This document shows, one piece after another, positions 38,551-47,045 of a stretch of 64,000 nucleotides of DNA; within the stretch, counting starts at the first letter, position 1; every line of letters begins with the position of its first letter. The stretch covers positions 558,001 through 622,000 of the forward strand of contig NC_091275.1 in assembly GCF_042100115.1 (NCBI RefSeq). The letters are read 5' to 3'. The translations under genes were made by a program, and so were the position numbers. The DNA is from Alternaria dauci (lineage: Eukaryota > Ascomycota > Dothideomycetes > Pleosporales > Pleosporaceae). The notes under the pieces were generated by a model. That model did not search any database and had not been told where the DNA came from. It worked only from the letters and a program-made list of their open reading frames with translations.

Positions 38551-39688
38551 CTATGCGGAATCCATGAGTCTACAACTACTCTCAGGCCTCAAGGCGTTAC
38601 TTGCCGAAGTAAACACCACCAACACAGCAGCATAGCTAGAACCCGTCCCAACAAATGGTCAGCAGTCCATACTCCTTGATAAAAAAAAGACACTCCACGG
38701 CGCAACACGTACCTCGCCCCAGCAGTAAACGTCTCGATCGTCCTCGCCTTTGTTCACGTCGACAGCGCCGAAAGAAAGAACAATACAGCCACCGTAATCG
38801 TAACAAGCCGCCACAACGCATCCTGAATGCAAAACAACACAATGACAGGCGCCAGCAGTATCCCGCCCGCAACCCACGCCGTCACTGCCCGACTAAACGA
38901 CCGCAGACGCGGGCCCGCGAAGAAGATGCTGGGCTCTTGCGTTAGATCGGCACGCCCTGGTTTGAGCGCCTCAGGAAGAAACGTTAGTTTGCGAATGGGA
39001 CGTGCCAGTCTGAATGCTGCTCGTTCGATCAAGGACTCCATTGACGTTGCTGCGCTGTCTAGGGCGCCGGTTAGATTGGCTAGGTCGTGTGTGTGAGAGA
39101 GAAATTCTCGCTCTGCTCGAGCAATGTTGCCGGGACCGTTGAGCCAGTTCTCTACGCTGGATAGGTCGCGGGCTGAGGCGGTGGGGAGGCGCATTGCGTG
39201 GTGGTAGTCGCGCATCATTGTGTCTGTTTTCTCTTGTCAGTTTTGACGTTTGTCGATTGAAAGAGCTGGCTGATACAAGAATAAACATGACGTTCCTGTG
39301 CAGATTACACAGGTCCGTTACATCTTCTCACCATATTCGGACAACGAAACCTGCAGTCTCTTCAACACATCAAGTCGTTCGGCATTCTCGTCTTGCCTCG
39401 CGCACCCTAGAAAAAGCTTTCGAGGCTCTTGCTCATCGATAGAGCAGAGTCTCGTCTCTAGCTCTGCAATGCCATCTTGCTTGAGTAGCAGCAAGCGTAG
39501 CCTTGTCCTAGTAAAGCGTCGGAAGTTTTGTAATGCAGGGTGCATGTCCAGAAGCGCAGCGAACTTGGGATACCCGTTCGGAACGTCATCGACTGTTTCG
39601 AAACTAATGTCTTAGACTAATTTCGGCTGCATAGCTGGCTTGTTAACTCACAAGAAAACTGGCCCTTGTGGGTGGGAAGTGTTGACAT
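38551..39688 (-). pseudogene. DUF6594 membrane protein gene with in-frame TGA
   Basis: Fungal DUF6594-family membrane protein of unknown function. Four exons in gene order: 39688-39652, 39592-39332, 39223-38713 and 38635-38551; without the break it would give 297 residues. The N-terminal part has the family look: NGYPKFAALL, then RRFTRTRLRLLLLKQDGIAELE and a coiled region ending YDTMMRDYHHAM after splicing. The C-terminal part has two hydrophobic helices (AWVAGGILLAPVIVLFCIQ; ITVAVLFFLSALS), then TKARTIETFTAGA and SYAAVLVVF in the last exon. A TGA at 38756-38754 interrupts the frame between LSALST and TKARTIE, at a place where homologues read through. The truncated product would have 255 residues and lack the last helix. 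All other frame and splice signals are intact, so the change is recent, a sequencing error, or tolerated. It is not followed by CTA, the usual readthrough context. Confidence 0.68.
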
Positions 39689-40110: not shown

Positions 40111-40504
40111 ATGGATGACCCAAACGACAAAGATGTACCCGTGGTGAGTTGCACGGCGTATTACCGCTGAGACTCGCTAACGCTGTAGTCATCGCGACAC
40201 AATGGGCCTCTGAAAGACGGAGAGGGGAGACCAGTTAAGAAGACATATGTTCTGCCAACCCCTTTCTTGCATTCTCTACATCCACTAATTGGTAAATAAT
40301 TCCCTTTTACTGACTGTCCCCCAGCAAGCCAAATTTGCACCAGGCGACCAGGTCCGAATCAAGGCTACCAGTGCCCAAGGACTCCGCGGACCGTACAAGG
40401 TTACCGAAAAGTTGTCAGGCCCGAGGTACACGCTTGAAGGATCTGACGGCAGCTCCGTCGACAACGGAAAGCAGTTTGAGGAAGCGGAATTGGATCATGC
40501 GTAA
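40111..40504 (+). CDS. Small hypothetical protein with beta-rich C-terminal domain
   Basis: Proposed exons 40111-40143, 40189-40233 and 40325-40504 give 85 residues. The first intron has a strong GTGAGT donor; the second uses GTTAAG and an acceptor preceded by CTGAC, and its donor is less sure. The C-terminal 59 residues, KFAPGDQVRIKATS, GLRGPYKV and RYTLEGSDG, look like a small SH3/KOW-like barrel similar to many short fungal proteins of unknown function. No signal peptide. Its stop lies only 18 bp from the stop of the convergent caspase-like gene, so 3' UTRs must overlap. Confidence 0.6.
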
Positions 40505-40522: not shown

Positions 40523-42877
40523 CTAGGCATTGGGTCTCCTCCGTTCAAGCTTCCGCAATACCGTTCTGTCCATTGCATCAAGAAGCTTGCTTTTCCGTTC
40601 GTCGTCTTGCGTGACGCCAAAATCCGATTCGAGACAGGTCAGCACTGCATCTCTGTAATCTGAGCCAACATAGTGTGCCAGACTCTCTCGTGCCGTATCT
40701 TTCAGCCACTTGACCATATCTTCCTGTGCCACTTGCTCATGCCTGTCTTTCACCGTGGCATGCTTGTGGTACCCTTTCTGCTGATGCTTGGCCCGTTTCT
40801 CAATCGTATCGCGACAAGATTTCCAGAGTCCGATTTCCAGCAGCACAACACCCAACGAGTACAGATCGTGTTCCTTCTTGTGACCGTCTCGCACCTCGCC
40901 CTGTCGGTCTGGATGCCGATATATATCAAGCTCGATATTCTCCACGTACCGGCCGACCGACGCTTTCGCATTGGGACGCGCAAAGTCGAAGCCGTGCAGA
41001 TACGGCGAGTCGAAAGCCCATCTGTCGCTCGTGTCTCCCGAGACAGGCTTCAGGAACACAATGTTGTGAGACGAGATGGACTGGTGTACCCAGTCGACGC
41101 GATGCCATTGTTCGACTGCTTTTGCGATGTCGTAGGCCATAGTCAGGCGCTCTTCGAGGGTAGGTCGCAAGTGGCGGTTGAGATTCATCACTGCGTCGTA
41201 CAAGGTGATGGACTTCTTCTTGTAGTCGTTGGGTATGAGAAAGTGATACACGAACCGACGATCATGTTCCTCATGCTTCCAGTCATGGAGTTGAAGACAT
41301 CGAAACGACTCTGGCTTCTCCACTTCCAAGAGGTTTGCGAGAAGGGCTATGCGTGCCTTCATATCTTTGATATCTCCAGGGCTCCGGTGTTCATCATACT
41401 TTTTGTACTCTTCCATTACTCGATCTGGAGCTACCCGTGTAACGGACCTGGTTGCAGCAACCTTCCCCTTGAGCTCGGGTTCTTGTTGCCGACAGATGAT
41501 TTTACGTAGAACCAAGTGGCTCTTCAATTCGAATAGCTCCGATGCAGGATCATCGAGTACTCGATCGATCATAGCGGGGTTTGAAGATGCATCAGAGAAC
41601 ATCACTACCTTTTGCAGGAGTTGTGTGATTTCCATGTTGCAAGCATTCATTGTCTTGATCAGGTCATCGTCAAATTGCCGTTTTCGATCTTCGAGTTCTG
41701 CGAATGCTGATGTATCAAGCCGTGACTTGTAACGGGTTACGTGCTGTTCCAGTGAGTTCCAAACCTCGCTGATCTGCTTCAATACCGGAATGTCCACATA
41801 TTGCGCAACGGCGCCAGATTTCATTGGAAGCGAGTTTCCAATAAAGTCGTTGATGTTTGCAGTTTGAGTCAGTACTCTCTCAACCTTCAATCCTGCGACA
41901 AGTTCATTTGGTGCTTCGTCGAAGAGCCACCGGCCGATGTTCTTTAGGATAGCGTGAGTCAAAGGTTCCCGCATGCCAATAGTAACGCTCACAGCTGCCC
42001 TCCAAGCCACCATGCTCTCTGTTTGTTCTCCTGGTTCCGGAAGTTTCTCAAGGACAACACTTCGCTCTGAAGGACCGGCGCGAAGATGCACGTGGAAGGG
42101 GGTGGTATATAAATCGGCCTTTCGGTGGACCAGAGCAGCATGTAGCTCCGATATTTTCACTTGCTTCTTCTCCTTGATCCACTCTTTCATAAGCTTGATC
42201 ATTCCGTTTGTGAAAGAGAGGTCTCCTGGATGAGGTGTTTCAGCCTTGTCGCCTGCAGCCGCAAGTAGCTCCACTCCACTGGGTGGCTTGTCAAGTGCTT
42301 CGTCCCCAGTGTCTCTCCCCGCTTGCGCAGCATGACAACAGTCTAAGAGGAGGAGTACATCGAATGGAACGTCAATGAAGAGTTGTTGTACCTCGTACCA
42401 TCTTACGGATGGTCCACCTTCGCGTTGGCTGTCTGTTGTCAGATAACAAAACCTTAAAGGGTGAGGTTGTAATTACGCTCGCCATACTGCCCTTCGTTGT
42501 TGAGGGCCCCCAGGCCCAGTGTAGTGGATGTCGTCATCCTTATCCCCATGGCCACCGTAATGGATGATCAGCAGGCAAGGTGCGTCAAGCAAAGCCATTC
42601 GGCGTACGAGTAATGCTTGCTGATCCATGACGAATTTACGCATCTCGATCTGACTATGATTACTAGGAATAGCCCAGACCTGCGTGTCGAATTTGAGTCC
42701 CTCCTTGAAGAACGACTCTACCATCTCGGCTTCTCTCACGTAGTCCTCCAATCTATCCGAGTCCTCCCAATGTAAGATCACGGCTCGAACAGCGGCATAT
42801 CGTACTAGAGGCACTGGTTTCTCGACTAGATGTTTGAGACGCCTTTCGTAGTCATTGTCGGTGGCACCAGAATCCAT
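40523..42877 (-). CDS. Caspase-like domain fused to a pseudokinase
   Basis: Two exons in gene order, 42877-42477 and 42428-40523 (48-bp intron), give 768 residues. The N-terminal domain (about 1-250) is caspase-like: RAVILHWEDSD starts the fold, LLIIHYGGHGD carries the likely catalytic His 110, and after the intron VLLLLDCCHAAQAG carries the likely catalytic Cys 165; GVELLAAAGDK and the LSFT block are typical of fungal C14-like proteins. A helical linker follows. The C-terminal part (about 500-720) is kinase-like but degenerate: the HRD loop reads H582-Q-S with the catalytic Asp lost, Asn 588 remains, and DFG reads DFA at 615. Motifs IELDIYRHPDRQG and DLYSLGVVLLEIGLWKS match the pseudokinase that in other fungi sits behind HeLo cell-death domains. 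Inference: a cell-death or non-self-response protein in which the pseudokinase senses or regulates the protease. Substrates unknown. Confidence 0.85.
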
Positions 42878-43598
42878 GGTGGTGATAGGTAGCAACGATA
42901 CTGTCAGCAGAGGAGATAGACCCAACAGGTCAATCGATAAGCAAGATTTCAGAAGATTACTTTTTGAGGATGCTGAACAGTGGATGGGGCTTCGACCGGT
43001 TGTCGTGTTTGGTGGGCTGATGAAATTGATGGTGAGAGACCGATGTCTAGATATTTGGGGCGTTACATGGTATACCTTGGCGAAAAGTGGCCCGAAAGCA
43101 CACTTCCTAGTAATTGATTATCCTTGTATCGTCATGATCTCCCCGCTTGTCCTACGGCAGGGGCAATGGGTCGGCAAGAAGGCATGTCAAGACAGCCATA
43201 ACGACGGGGCGTTTGGCGCAAGGCTGAGGCAGTATGTGATGCAATTTCCACTATGTGAAGACGAACGCAGCTTCTCAGAACCCACTTGGTCGTGTAAGTC
43301 GCTCATTGGGGCATGATAAGCTCGCATCGATGCCTTGAGCCTATAAACACAGAGCTGGATAAATGACGCATATAATGGAGGGCGCTCTACAGAAGGCTGA
43401 AGATGGGCGTTTTACCCCTCCTTCGCCACATGCAAAGCCATGCGTGTGCAGTGCACGAGTTCTCGCATGGAATAAACGCGTAGTTGGAAGCGTCTTAGCC
43501 GAGACGAAACGGAGTTGATCTTGGTGGTCTCTTGTACAGCTGGACTGCGGCCTTCTATACCATTCCCCAATTCACGGGCTTAGAATTCAACGCCGAAT
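42878..43598. promoter_or_regulatory. Divergent promoter, caspase-pseudokinase and kinase-ankyrin genes
   Basis: A 721-bp region between two divergent start codons; the pair may be co-regulated. An open frame across 42855-43316 is a shadow overlapping the caspase gene start and has no motif. Confidence 0.5.
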
Positions 43599-46500
43599 AT
43601 GGTACACGAACGGTCAGATAGACGGGTTAAGGGAAGTGGGCCCGCGCGACAAGAGTCAGTTGACAATTCGACCAGGCTGGCAGAACCCGAGCAAGAAAGC
43701 CGAAGCAGATCCTATCCGGTAAACCCGAGCGACAGTAGACCTTACATCTCTGAACGCAACTCCGTTGGGTATTCCGGAGACAATCGAGATAAATCGGGTT
43801 CAAGCGTTGTCAACCCCCAATCACCCGGTTCCCTTGCCGCACGCACGACATTGGAGTACCTGTTTGAAGAGCTGCGACCCAAAACCTTGGCTGGTCCTGT
43901 CTCGCTGATAGGCCTACCCATCAACATCGGTGAGGGTGGTCAATTTGTTGTCTACAAGCAGGAAGTAGGATTCTTAGATCGGCAAACTTCTGATGGATCA
44001 GTTGTGGCGGTCAAGCGGCCAAAGACAAATTCCAACTCTGGCGGCCCTATGGATCTAGCGGACCCGAAGATGAAGGGAGATTTGAGCTATATCCGTAACG
44101 AGATACAGGCCCTGACACACCCAGTATTGCGACATCATCCGAATATCGTCAGATTGCTGTCATGGGCTTTCGGAAACGAATGGGACCGCCCCTTTTTCCT
44201 GGTGCTCGAACTTGCACATGAGGATCTGGCAAGCGCCTTGAAACAGCATGTTGCTCCCCCAGATCCGATGAAAGTGCAATTCTGTAGCGACATCGCTAAT
44301 GGACTGGTGGCCATCCACGAAGCGCGGTTTGTGCACGGCGATTTGAAGCCGGCGAACGTCCTTTTATTCCGCGCAGGGGCAGGATTTGTTGCGAAATTAG
44401 CGGATTTCGGCTACTCCGCTAACGAAACTGACCAAGCTGTTGGTCGCACACCTGGTTGGCAACCACCAGAACTCAAGCCATCTCGTTTAGGGGACTGTTT
44501 TTCCTTCGGGTTGCTCGTCTGGAGCGTACTCTTCCTCATGGGTGAAGCGCCTCCGCATCCCCCAGGTCAGTCGAGGAAGGAGCTCGCATTAGCGCACGTT
44601 ATGGCTCATCGCAATCAATATGCTGAGCCCGTGACTAAGAGGATAGAGACTGCCCTGAGTGGCTTACTCGAAGAGGACATGGCCCAAAGATCTTGTCAAG
44701 TAGATGGCTTCTTCATCCATGAGACGTCACCAGACCATGTAGGCCTGTAAGTAGCACGCGGCTTGTACAGGACTGCACTAACATCCGCTAGTCGAGATTC
44801 CGTGAAAAGATACGATCCACATATCCTGTACAACTTCATCTCCAACAGCTACAGATGGGAAATTCAGCCTCGAGCAGCGACCCTGCTCAACGGTCTCTAC
44901 CGAACGACTCAAGAGAACCCCAAGGCTCTCGAATCGCTCACACCAGGAGATGCACTAACCATAGGATTGTGTCTTGCGGTGCAGATACCTGCGGAAGATA
45001 CGAGCCGCAACCACCTTGTCCGGAAGTTCCTTGAGATCTCAGCGAGACAACGTGACAGTATTGGTTGTGAAGACGACCCTGTTGCTTATCAAGTCGAACG
45101 TACCACTGAGCGAGAGGTCTACCATAGCATTATTGCTGGTGATCTTCTATCCAGATTCTGCAAAACACTCGGTGAGCCAATCAGTCGCGAGGATGCTACC
45201 GAATGGTTGGAGGTGGCGGTGGACACTGGTTCCGTACATGCAAGAGCTGATCTGTATGAACTCGATCCCGAACGAATGAGCAGAATGTTGGAGTCCTTTT
45301 GCACTCGCGGCGGCTACAACGTGCTTTACCGTAATATGGCCTACTCACCGAACGAACTTACTCCGCCAGCTGTAACTGAGGTTACGGATCAGAATATACT
45401 CCACAGGCTGGCCGCTTTCGGAAGTTGCGAGGAGCTAAAGGAATGCCTCGAGGAGCATCGCGATCTCCCGCTGAACGCGTTCTCAGAGGAGGAAGAGACC
45501 GCCCTATATATTGCGTGTGCCCGGGGCTCTTGGAAGCATGCCGAACTATTGCTTGATAAAGGCGCCGATCCTACAATCAAGTGTACTGCGTCCAGAATCA
45601 CGAGTCTGCACTGGGTTTTTGCCTTCGACGGAAAGATGTGTGAGACAGCTGTCAGAAGAATGCTTCAAGCTGGAGCTGATATCAACGCTTCGATCCCCCC
45701 GAATGTCGAGCTACCTTTTCCCCACTATCCGTTCGTGTTACCGGCTGGGACTCCCCTTCATTGGGCAGTTGCTACCTCGAGCCATGACGCAACTAAAGCC
45801 TTGCTCGAAGCAGGCGCCGACGCCCTTTTGCGAAACGGCAGTGATCCGTACATGTACGATGACAGGATTCGCCATCTATACGCCATTGGAGGCCCGGATG
45901 CCGAAGGATGCACTTTTGCGGAGCCTGGATGTCTCGGTCTTTCTGCTGTGGATCTGGCTGCAGTTCATAGAGATCCATTCCTCTTGCAAATAATGGCTGA
46001 GCGAGGAGACCGTATAGACATCAATTCCGCTGATGAAGAAGGGTTGACTGTCTTTCACAGGCTGGCCACAAGCCAGGTGTTCCGTACGAGCTGTAGAGTA
46101 AGATATTCCGCACGGATGTTTCGTGGATTAAACGAAGCCGAGGCCTTGCCATCCTTGATCGCGGCAATCAAAAGTCTGGGTGGCGATATCGAGCGGTTGA
46201 CGAGTACTGCTGAAACTGCAGTTCAAAAGAAACTGAGGCCTACTGACCTCTCTAAGTCCAGCTATACCCCTCTGATGCTGGCAATATTAGAGGGAGACCA
46301 TAGTCTTGTCCATGCCCTGTTGAACTGTGGTGCGAGCGCCAACACAGAAAACGCGTCGCGAGCGACTGCGTTGTTCCACGTATCGCACAAAGCGAACGCG
46401 GAGCAACCTCAACTTTTGCAGTGCTTCCAGACACTGTTCACCCATAGCGCGAATATTAATCATCACTCCTTGACTGGAAACACTCCTCTACTCGCGGCGG

Positions 46501-47045
46501 CGCAGGGACGTGTCCTCGGTGTATTCGATTTTCTCCTCTCTCAAGGCGCCCATATCGACGAGAGGGACAGGACAGAACGTTCGGTTTTTCCAGGGAAGAG
46601 CGTGTTTGCCTTCTTCGCTTCTTACGACAACAATAGCGATGATGTTCTTTTGCAACTCCTCACCAAATACGTCTTCCATTCGTCCAAGCCTGAGAGAAAG
46701 CGGCGAGTCGTACAGGACGGGTCCGATAGTGGCAGTACTCTTCTTCACGAATGCGCAGGATTCGCCATGCCGAATTGCACGAAAGCCCTCCTCCAGAATG
46801 GTGCTCACGTCAATGCACTCGAATGTAAGACCCGGTTTGGCAAACCAGATGGGCGGAGCATATTGTATGAAACTCCTTTAGATCGACTGAAGAGCAGCAG
46901 AGACTTTACTCTGAAGATGATGTTACAGCGTAGGAATTTATCTACCGATCAAGCGAACATACTTCGGGCCCGGTGGAACGAGGTAGAGGAGCATATCAAG
47001 AGCGAACGCGGAAAAAATTGGACATCGGACATGACCCGCGAGTAG
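43599..47045 (+). CDS. Ser/Thr protein kinase with ankyrin repeats
   Basis: Exons 43599-44746 and 44792-47045 (45-bp intron) give 1133 residues. An N-terminal polar region (1-95) leads to a kinase domain (about 98-375). All key residues are present: Gly loop INIGEGGQF, Lys 139 (VAVK), Glu 168, HGDLKPAN with catalytic Asp 248 and Asn 253, DFG with Asp 269, and QPPE at 288-291. HGD instead of HRD is common in receptor-like kinases. A helical region (about 385-600, Sel1-like pieces such as VHARADLYELDP) comes before at least seven ankyrin repeats, seen as ALYIACARGSWKHAELLLDKGADP, TPLHWAVATSSHDATKALLEAGAD-like, TPLMLAILEGDHSLVHALLNCGA-like, TPLLAAAQGRVLGVFDFLLSQGA-like and LLHECAGFAMPNCTKALLQNGA-like units. 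There is no membrane segment. Its head-to-head position with the caspase-pseudokinase gene suggests a shared pathway; that is inference. Confidence 0.88.

Follow-up and report, generated by a model that had tools for sequence, protein, structure and literature searches.

A caspase-like domain joined to a DUF7580 pseudokinase in Alternaria dauci, and its head-to-head kinase-ankyrin neighbour, as a candidate two-gene death module

Results

The window analysed here is a stretch of 64,000 nucleotides (positions 558,001 to 622,000 of contig NC_091275.1, assembly GCF_042100115.1) from Alternaria dauci, described in the accessible part of PMC9114375 as a leaf pathogen of carrot. Positions 42877-40523 of its minus strand encode a single protein of 768 amino acids, in which an N-terminal caspase-like domain is followed by a C-terminal DUF7580 pseudokinase (Table 1). 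The coordinates, strand and length, the pair His110/Cys165 and the motifs HQS and DFA are all as an original prediction, made from the sequence of the window, had given them. The protein is 100% identical over its 768 amino acids to ACET3X_004799, under which the fusion is annotated in its own genome as one gene for a hypothetical protein, and the genome holds one full-length copy. The His110 codon (42550-42548, in YGGHGD) lies in exon 1 and that of Cys165 (42337-42335, in DCCHA) in exon 2. The 48-nt intron between them was chosen among 18 frame-keeping candidates, and the choice is borne out by the identity to the annotated protein.

A two-exon gene for a DUF6594 protein (38754-39611, minus strand) adjoins the fusion and its divergent neighbour. 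Just downstream of the fusion lies a small frame (40289-40504, plus strand) without a Pfam match, which is tudor/SH3-like by eye; in Podospora, the part of PMC9262711 available to us describes a HeLo-like domain joined to a TUDOR domain in het-Vb.

Table 1. Features of the fusion gene and its divergent neighbour, by position in the window
Feature	Position	Strand	Remarks
Exon 1, fusion gene	42477..42877	-	Encodes residues 1-133 plus two bases of codon 134; carries His110
Intron, 48 nt	42429..42476	-	GTAATT...ACAG; CTGAC branch-like site; parts the protease between its His and its Cys half
Exon 2, fusion gene	40523..42428	-	Completes codon 134 and runs through 768 to the stop; carries Cys165
Caspase-like domain	42035..42805	-	Residues ~25-265, intron inside; placed by C14 profile, NF047832 and AlphaFold strand/helix order
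Helical middle	41474..41962	-	Residues 290-452; from ~383 homologous to the HeLo end and linker of HeLo-pseudokinases
DUF7580 pseudokinase	40535..41458	-	Residues 458-765; HQS for HRD (41086-41078), DFA for DFG (40987-40979)
Shared intergenic stretch	42878..43598	.	721 nt between the two divergent start codons
Kinase and ankyrin-repeat gene	43599..47045	+	1133 amino acids if spliced; Pfam Pkinase E 2.6e-20, Ank_2 E 2.1e-28

As the joining of His and Cys depends on a predicted intron that contains an in-frame stop, the fusion might be taken for an artefact of the gene model, uniting two adjacent genes. Against this, the Cys half of the protease and the pseudokinase occupy one uninterrupted exon, and a search for the same fusion in other fungi, which the original prediction had proposed, found both parts in 87 of the 153 proteins retrieved, and in 43 of the 87 the caspase domain is nearly complete (the domain counts cover these 153 proteins; the region search contributed the best 120 of 241 matches, and scoring in the first search covered the 7994 candidates with the most words in common). 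An artefact of this kind is hardly credible, and a chimera of annotation was likewise dropped on the strength of the identical annotated protein and the two-domain relatives. The concern that exon-level annotation could miss the fusion holds for the databases at large, where 42 of the 87 copies are without the His half and 17 of those 42 start at residues 131-136, on the intron junction at residue 134, but not for the genome of A. dauci itself, in which the annotation is complete.

Pfam Peptidase_C14 scores 16.9 bits on the whole A. dauci protein and 19.9 bits (E 6.4e-4) on the cut-out domain, under the cut-off of 21.4, while the fused relatives P0066, P0095 and P0101 exceed it at 28.0-29.8 bits. 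All 14 cut-out caspase domains scanned match the C14 profile at E<=0.1, the best at 3.5e-8 (a separate alignment, A2, comprises 14 of 18 domains), and a whole-protein match at E<=0.01 is found in 22 of the 57 family members scanned, many of which are incomplete. In a second profile library (NCBIfam), the protein matches 'caspase, EACC1-associated type' (NF047832) with E 2.1e-6, a score far under that profile's own naming cut-off. In an AlphaFold model of the fusion (mean pLDDT 83.0, pTM 0.61), strands and helices alternate over residues 29-261 in an order that, read by eye, fits a caspase fold, with 10-residue pLDDT blocks mostly of 84-97 outside loops and domain edges. Full-length fold searches returned only kinases among the matches listed, and a caspase-only profile searched against PDB sequences gave no significant match (yeast metacaspase Mca1, E 0.19).

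Within the A. dauci genome, the family profile picks up two C14-like proteins, L015 (E 1.2e-34) and L016 (E 1e-32), from what is a small set; the former stands over the Pfam C14 cut-off and the latter just under it. L015 (C1:3261651-3262844; L015:1495-2688) is caspase-like, of the same subfamily and without a kinase match, and a hydrophobic stretch near its C-terminus resembles, by eye, a membrane anchor. A caspase-like domain of the same kind precedes a homeodomain in P0070 of Phialocephala subalpina (974 amino acids). Neither CHAT (PF12770) nor NACHT or NB-ARC was matched, at E<=1 in the A. dauci fusion or at E<=0.01 in the 57 members of the family alignment (A1: 57 chosen rows, with P0102 in and with P0009, P0030 and P0053 among those out). 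Membership of the fusion among CHAT proteases or NLRs was dropped on this basis, and S8 was likewise without a match in the fusion scan and the 57-member scan.

The catalytic pair is conserved. Both residues are kept in 41 of the 43 relatives that have letters at both sites, the other 44 of the 87 two-domain relatives being cut or gapped there (32 without the His site only, 10 without both sites and 2 without the Cys site). This argues that the caspase-like domain is not a chance resemblance, and that the protease is under selection. The two exceptions are both Alternaria fused relatives: P0009 (A. triticimaculans), in which His is replaced by Asp (YGGDSG), and P0053 (A. viburni), in which Cys is replaced by Tyr (DSYH). 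From their sequences, these two are possible pseudo-proteases, and as some C14-like domains are inactive, it could be argued that the caspase-like part serves generally as a module for oligomerisation or protein binding. The near-universal retention of the dyad speaks against such a role, as does the invariance, wherever present, of W144, Q148, D163, C164, C165 and R172 (54-55 rows each, in 56 chosen rows with P0009 and P0053 left out), and we regard a pseudo-protease as very unlikely.

The C-terminal domain matches DUF7580 (PF24476) at 39.5 bits (cut-off 27) over residues 555-755. HQS occupies residues 582-584 and DFA residues 615-617, such that the protein is without the HRD Asp and the DFG Gly and has neither motif of a catalytic kinase. 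The original prediction had singled out a kinase that lost its catalytic Asp; the residue is indeed missing, but this is not peculiar to the fusion, as the HRD Asp occurs in 0 of the 152 kinase domains compared, and the idea of a special event in A. dauci was dropped in favour of a family-wide condition. Of the 87 fused members, 76 retain Lys476, which stands where the beta-3 lysine usually does, and its retention alongside the universal absence of the Asp argues for a stable pseudokinase and not a decaying one. The catalytic-loop signature is HQ-(G/S) in the fused set, whereas HKS together with Arg 586 prevails in the set without C14. A search of PDB sequences with the family profile (57 rows, one being the HeLo protein P0102) placed MLKL first (4btf, E 1.5e-6), before LIMK1 and IRAK4, and the profile of the set without C14 had IRAK4 as its best match. 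Judged from these matches, the pseudokinase is related to TKL-type kinases in general, and not to MLKL in particular.

It had also been claimed that the same type of pseudokinase follows HeLo domains elsewhere, and that the protease stands in the place of HeLo. The first holds for 35 of the 63 members without C14 that were scanned (HeLo at E<=0.01; P0014 and P0015, likely fragments, were left aside), and for a second locus of the A. dauci genome, described below. For the second, hhalign of the fused family (residues 275-765) against a HeLo-type set (20 chosen proteins without C14, 13 with precomputed PF14479, reference P0102) gave an alignment that begins at residue 383 and runs through to the C-terminus (E 4.1e-88), and the helical middle alone matched only from 383 (E 1.8e-4, probability 48.5%). 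The start at 383 corresponds to residue 173 of P0102, within its HeLo match (23-196). Upstream of 383, homology to the HeLo-type set could not be detected; the caspase part gave no match to that set (probability 0.4%), and the fusion protein none to a HeLo domain at E<=1. On these profile comparisons, the fused and HeLo families have in common a HeLo end, linker and pseudokinase and are different upstream of about residue 383, which supports the claim that the protease stands in HeLo's place. Residues 270-455, modelled alone, are helical with no clear fold match, and the helical middle may be a diverged four-helix bundle.

Relatives of the fusion occur in many filamentous ascomycetes, the named matches listed belonging to Pleosporales, Eurotiales, Sordariales, Xylariales, Diaporthales, Helotiales, Fusarium and lichen fungi. 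Scans of prokaryote and viral contig collections, with two short patterns per scan, did not find the fusion, and the matches to the caspase region were one weak one in prokaryote contigs (Saccharothrix, residues 102-239) and three in viral contigs (residues 83-173). In a kinase-domain tree of 63 chosen rows, the main caspase group comprises 31 rows together with the HeLo protein P0102 (branch 100/97), while the fused P0037, P0038 and P0068 are placed among the types without C14 (99/92); a single caspase clade is not rejected by an AU test (p 0.083), and a caspase tree of 29 rows gives no resolution on one versus several origins. P0102, a HeLo-DUF7580 protein with its kinase inside the caspase-fused group, is a possible reverse swap of the N-terminal part, as far as the tree can indicate. 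The A. dauci fusion (P0001) is 58-68% identical to the Alternaria proteins P0004, P0005 and P0009 and 66% identical to each of its counterparts in Amniculicola and Plenodomus; that it is no closer to the three Alternaria proteins could reflect old paralogy, loss or transfer.

Head-to-head with the fusion gene, starting 722 bp from its start codon, stands a gene that goes beyond the original prediction. It encodes a kinase that keeps VAVK, HGDLKPAN and DFG and is followed by ankyrin repeats. Its in-frame TAA falls inside a 45-nt stretch (44747-44791, GTAAGT...CTAG) that is likely an intron and looked best among 16 candidates. The best genome-wide match of this kinase lies on C10 of the same genome (41% identity, E 2.8e-17; next E 8.6e-9), and the reverse search returns the window kinase (E 1.7e-17; next E 8.3e-5), making the two reciprocal best matches. 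At C10:1759589-1766383 (L024:2590-9384) that second kinase, with ankyrin repeats in the same frame past one stop codon, is itself head-to-head with a HeLo-pseudokinase in the layout of the window pair, with 705 bp between the first ATGs. The pseudokinase there matches HeLo at E 1.2e-21 and DUF7580 at 23.4 bits, under the cut-off of 27. Thus a kinase-ankyrin gene with live motifs adjoins the fusion, and its counterpart adjoins a HeLo-pseudokinase. No promoter motif common to the two pairs was found, the best being 11 bases (E 0.096), and among the best 60 PDB rows listed the window kinase is nearest to LRRK2 and Aurora A, not RIPK3.

The kinase-ankyrin gene might still be a chance neighbour, with the pseudokinase sensing by itself. 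Seven DUF7580-type loci were found in the genome (four via the Pfam profile and three via protein search), and five of them are without a kinase-ankyrin neighbour: four have no kinase within 10 kb, and one, on C1, has a kinase 3.9 kb off that is strongly canonical and of housekeeping type (E 1.9e-64; CDK11-like by its PITALRE motif), which was dropped as a third pair. Set against this is the rarity of the neighbour itself. The 139 Pkinase rows of the genome fall into 104 clusters, and only two of these are followed by ankyrin repeats on the same strand within 5 kb (the count covers all 139 kinase rows and, of 144 ankyrin rows, 80, the rest being, as judged by eye, further repeats of included arrays); both are head-to-head with one of the seven DUF7580-type genes, and they are each other's best match. 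Under random placement, each gene would come to lie divergently, at 1.5 kb or less, beside one of the seven loci with a probability of 1.5e-4. With the window pair taken as given, 6/7 of this value, about 1.3e-4, applies to the second gene falling so beside one of the six loci that remain. Both figures are post hoc, though the C10 pair was found by following the window pair; the arrangement is known from two loci of one genome. We consider a chance neighbour unlikely.

Discussion

The original prediction had interpreted the protein as a death protease, controlled by a pseudokinase and standing in the place of HeLo, and this interpretation is partly supported. The idea of control draws its best support from the live-motif kinase-ankyrin gene head-to-head with the fusion and from the counterpart of that gene beside a HeLo-pseudokinase. 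From this arrangement, we read the window and C10 pairs as a two-gene module in which an ankyrin-kinase would act as sensor and a pseudokinase would gate an effector, the effectors being exchangeable. For the fusion itself, we propose a two-state death (or stress) protease that is gated by the pseudokinase, with the ankyrin-kinase as sensor, a reading to which we would give an even chance of being correct.

Protease activity, phosphorylation and cell death are here inferred by analogy with the biology of MLKL and of caspases. The ankyrin-kinase would be the sensor, and once activated it would phosphorylate or bind the pseudokinase, as RIPK3 does MLKL. The pseudokinase would then change shape, or oligomerise via the helical middle, and so gather the caspase-like domains; initiator caspases are switched on by being brought together. 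The protease would thereafter cleave a substrate, for which a gasdermin-like pore-former is our guess, and death of the hyphal compartment would follow. In the sister module on C10, HeLo, of a membrane-permeabilising type, sits on the same chassis instead of the protease.

Several findings are at odds with a death protease so controlled. Most DUF7580-type loci of the genome lack a kinase-ankyrin neighbour, and the pseudokinase of the C10 pair falls under the DUF7580 cut-off; the fusion lies under the Pfam C14 cut-off, a dyad residue is lost in P0009 and in P0053, and the partner kinase is not nearest to RIPK3. Nor was a gasdermin gene identified near the fusion, in scans that used general rather than gasdermin-specific models. 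It is also conceivable that the fusion is a housekeeping or stress protease, engaged for example in the clearance of damaged proteins, in which the pseudokinase would be a platform for binding substrates or partners and no death programme would be involved. The available portion of PMC13304501 presents metacaspases as C14 proteases with disputed or non-death roles, and a single full-length copy with relatives in many filamentous ascomycetes would fit such a function. However, a housekeeping protease would not lead one to expect HeLo on the same pseudokinase chassis in more than half of the scanned members without C14, nor a type of kinase-ankyrin neighbour held in common with a HeLo member, and we think this explanation rather unlikely.

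We further suggest, with somewhat less than even confidence, that filamentous fungi possess an undescribed class of two-gene death modules, in which an ankyrin-repeat kinase sensor would be head-to-head with an MLKL-like pseudokinase effector whose tip could be either a necroptosis-like HeLo pore-former or, in exchange, a caspase-like protease acting in the manner of pyroptosis or apoptosis. If this is true, one control system would drive two modes of death, and the warhead may have been swapped more than once.

Animals run caspase-driven and RIPK/MLKL-driven death as two distinct pathways, each of which restrains the other. Here, a protease and an MLKL-like pseudokinase are united in a single polypeptide chain, while the sister module on C10 has HeLo on the same chassis beside the same type of kinase. 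Should the proposed mechanism prove true, the fusion would offer a compact system for learning how a pseudokinase turns an effector on, and the activation of fungal death sensors would become directly testable in laboratory fungi. DUF7580, in addition, gains a hypothesis for its function.

With regard to what has been described, the literature searched (with preprints outside it and subscription journals thinly covered) yielded no description of the fused family, and the name 'DUF7580' was not found in it. The portions of PMC9815663, PMC12258605, PMC4986451 and PMC13304501 to which we had access do not mention a C14-pseudokinase fusion. The accessible text of PMC12881547 states that 'other predicted kinase-like domains' may be joined to the proteases of gasdermin systems in fungi, and that some HELL domains are found with kinase or pseudokinase domains; that of PMC10197012 places proteases of the CHAT and S8 types both in NLRs of fungi and in gasdermin clusters. 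We take the fused family, undescribed within the literature searched, to belong to the HeLo-pseudokinases of fungi as a member tipped with a protease.

The fusion can be set beside four known systems. The HeLo (PF14479)-DUF7580 pseudokinases resemble it in the homologous linker and pseudokinase from about residue 383 on, in their degenerate HRD and DFG, and in the head-to-head kinase-ankyrin gene at C10, whereas their N-terminal part consists of HeLo helices in place of a caspase-like protease, and their loop mostly carries HKS with Arg 586 in place of HQ-(G/S). MLKL, the executioner of necroptosis driven by RIPK3, is likewise a pseudokinase and is the best PDB match of the family profile, with LIMK1 and IRAK4 close behind in score, and a candidate kinase partner adjoins the fusion; unlike the fusion with its protease, MLKL bears an N-terminal four-helix bundle that permeabilises membranes. 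The fungal gasdermin-activating proteases (S8 and CHAT sensors) also combine a protease with a regulatory part in proposed two-gene death modules, but the fusion matches C14 and neither CHAT nor S8, and has no Pfam repeat match in its own protein. Finally, the metacaspases (C14, fungal Mca1) have in common with the fusion a caspase-type His-Cys dyad and a weak profile similarity, whereas the fusion constitutes a distinct subfamily (YGGHGD ... WY-IQ ... DCC), with L015 and L016 as its nearest relatives in its own genome, and is joined to a pseudokinase.
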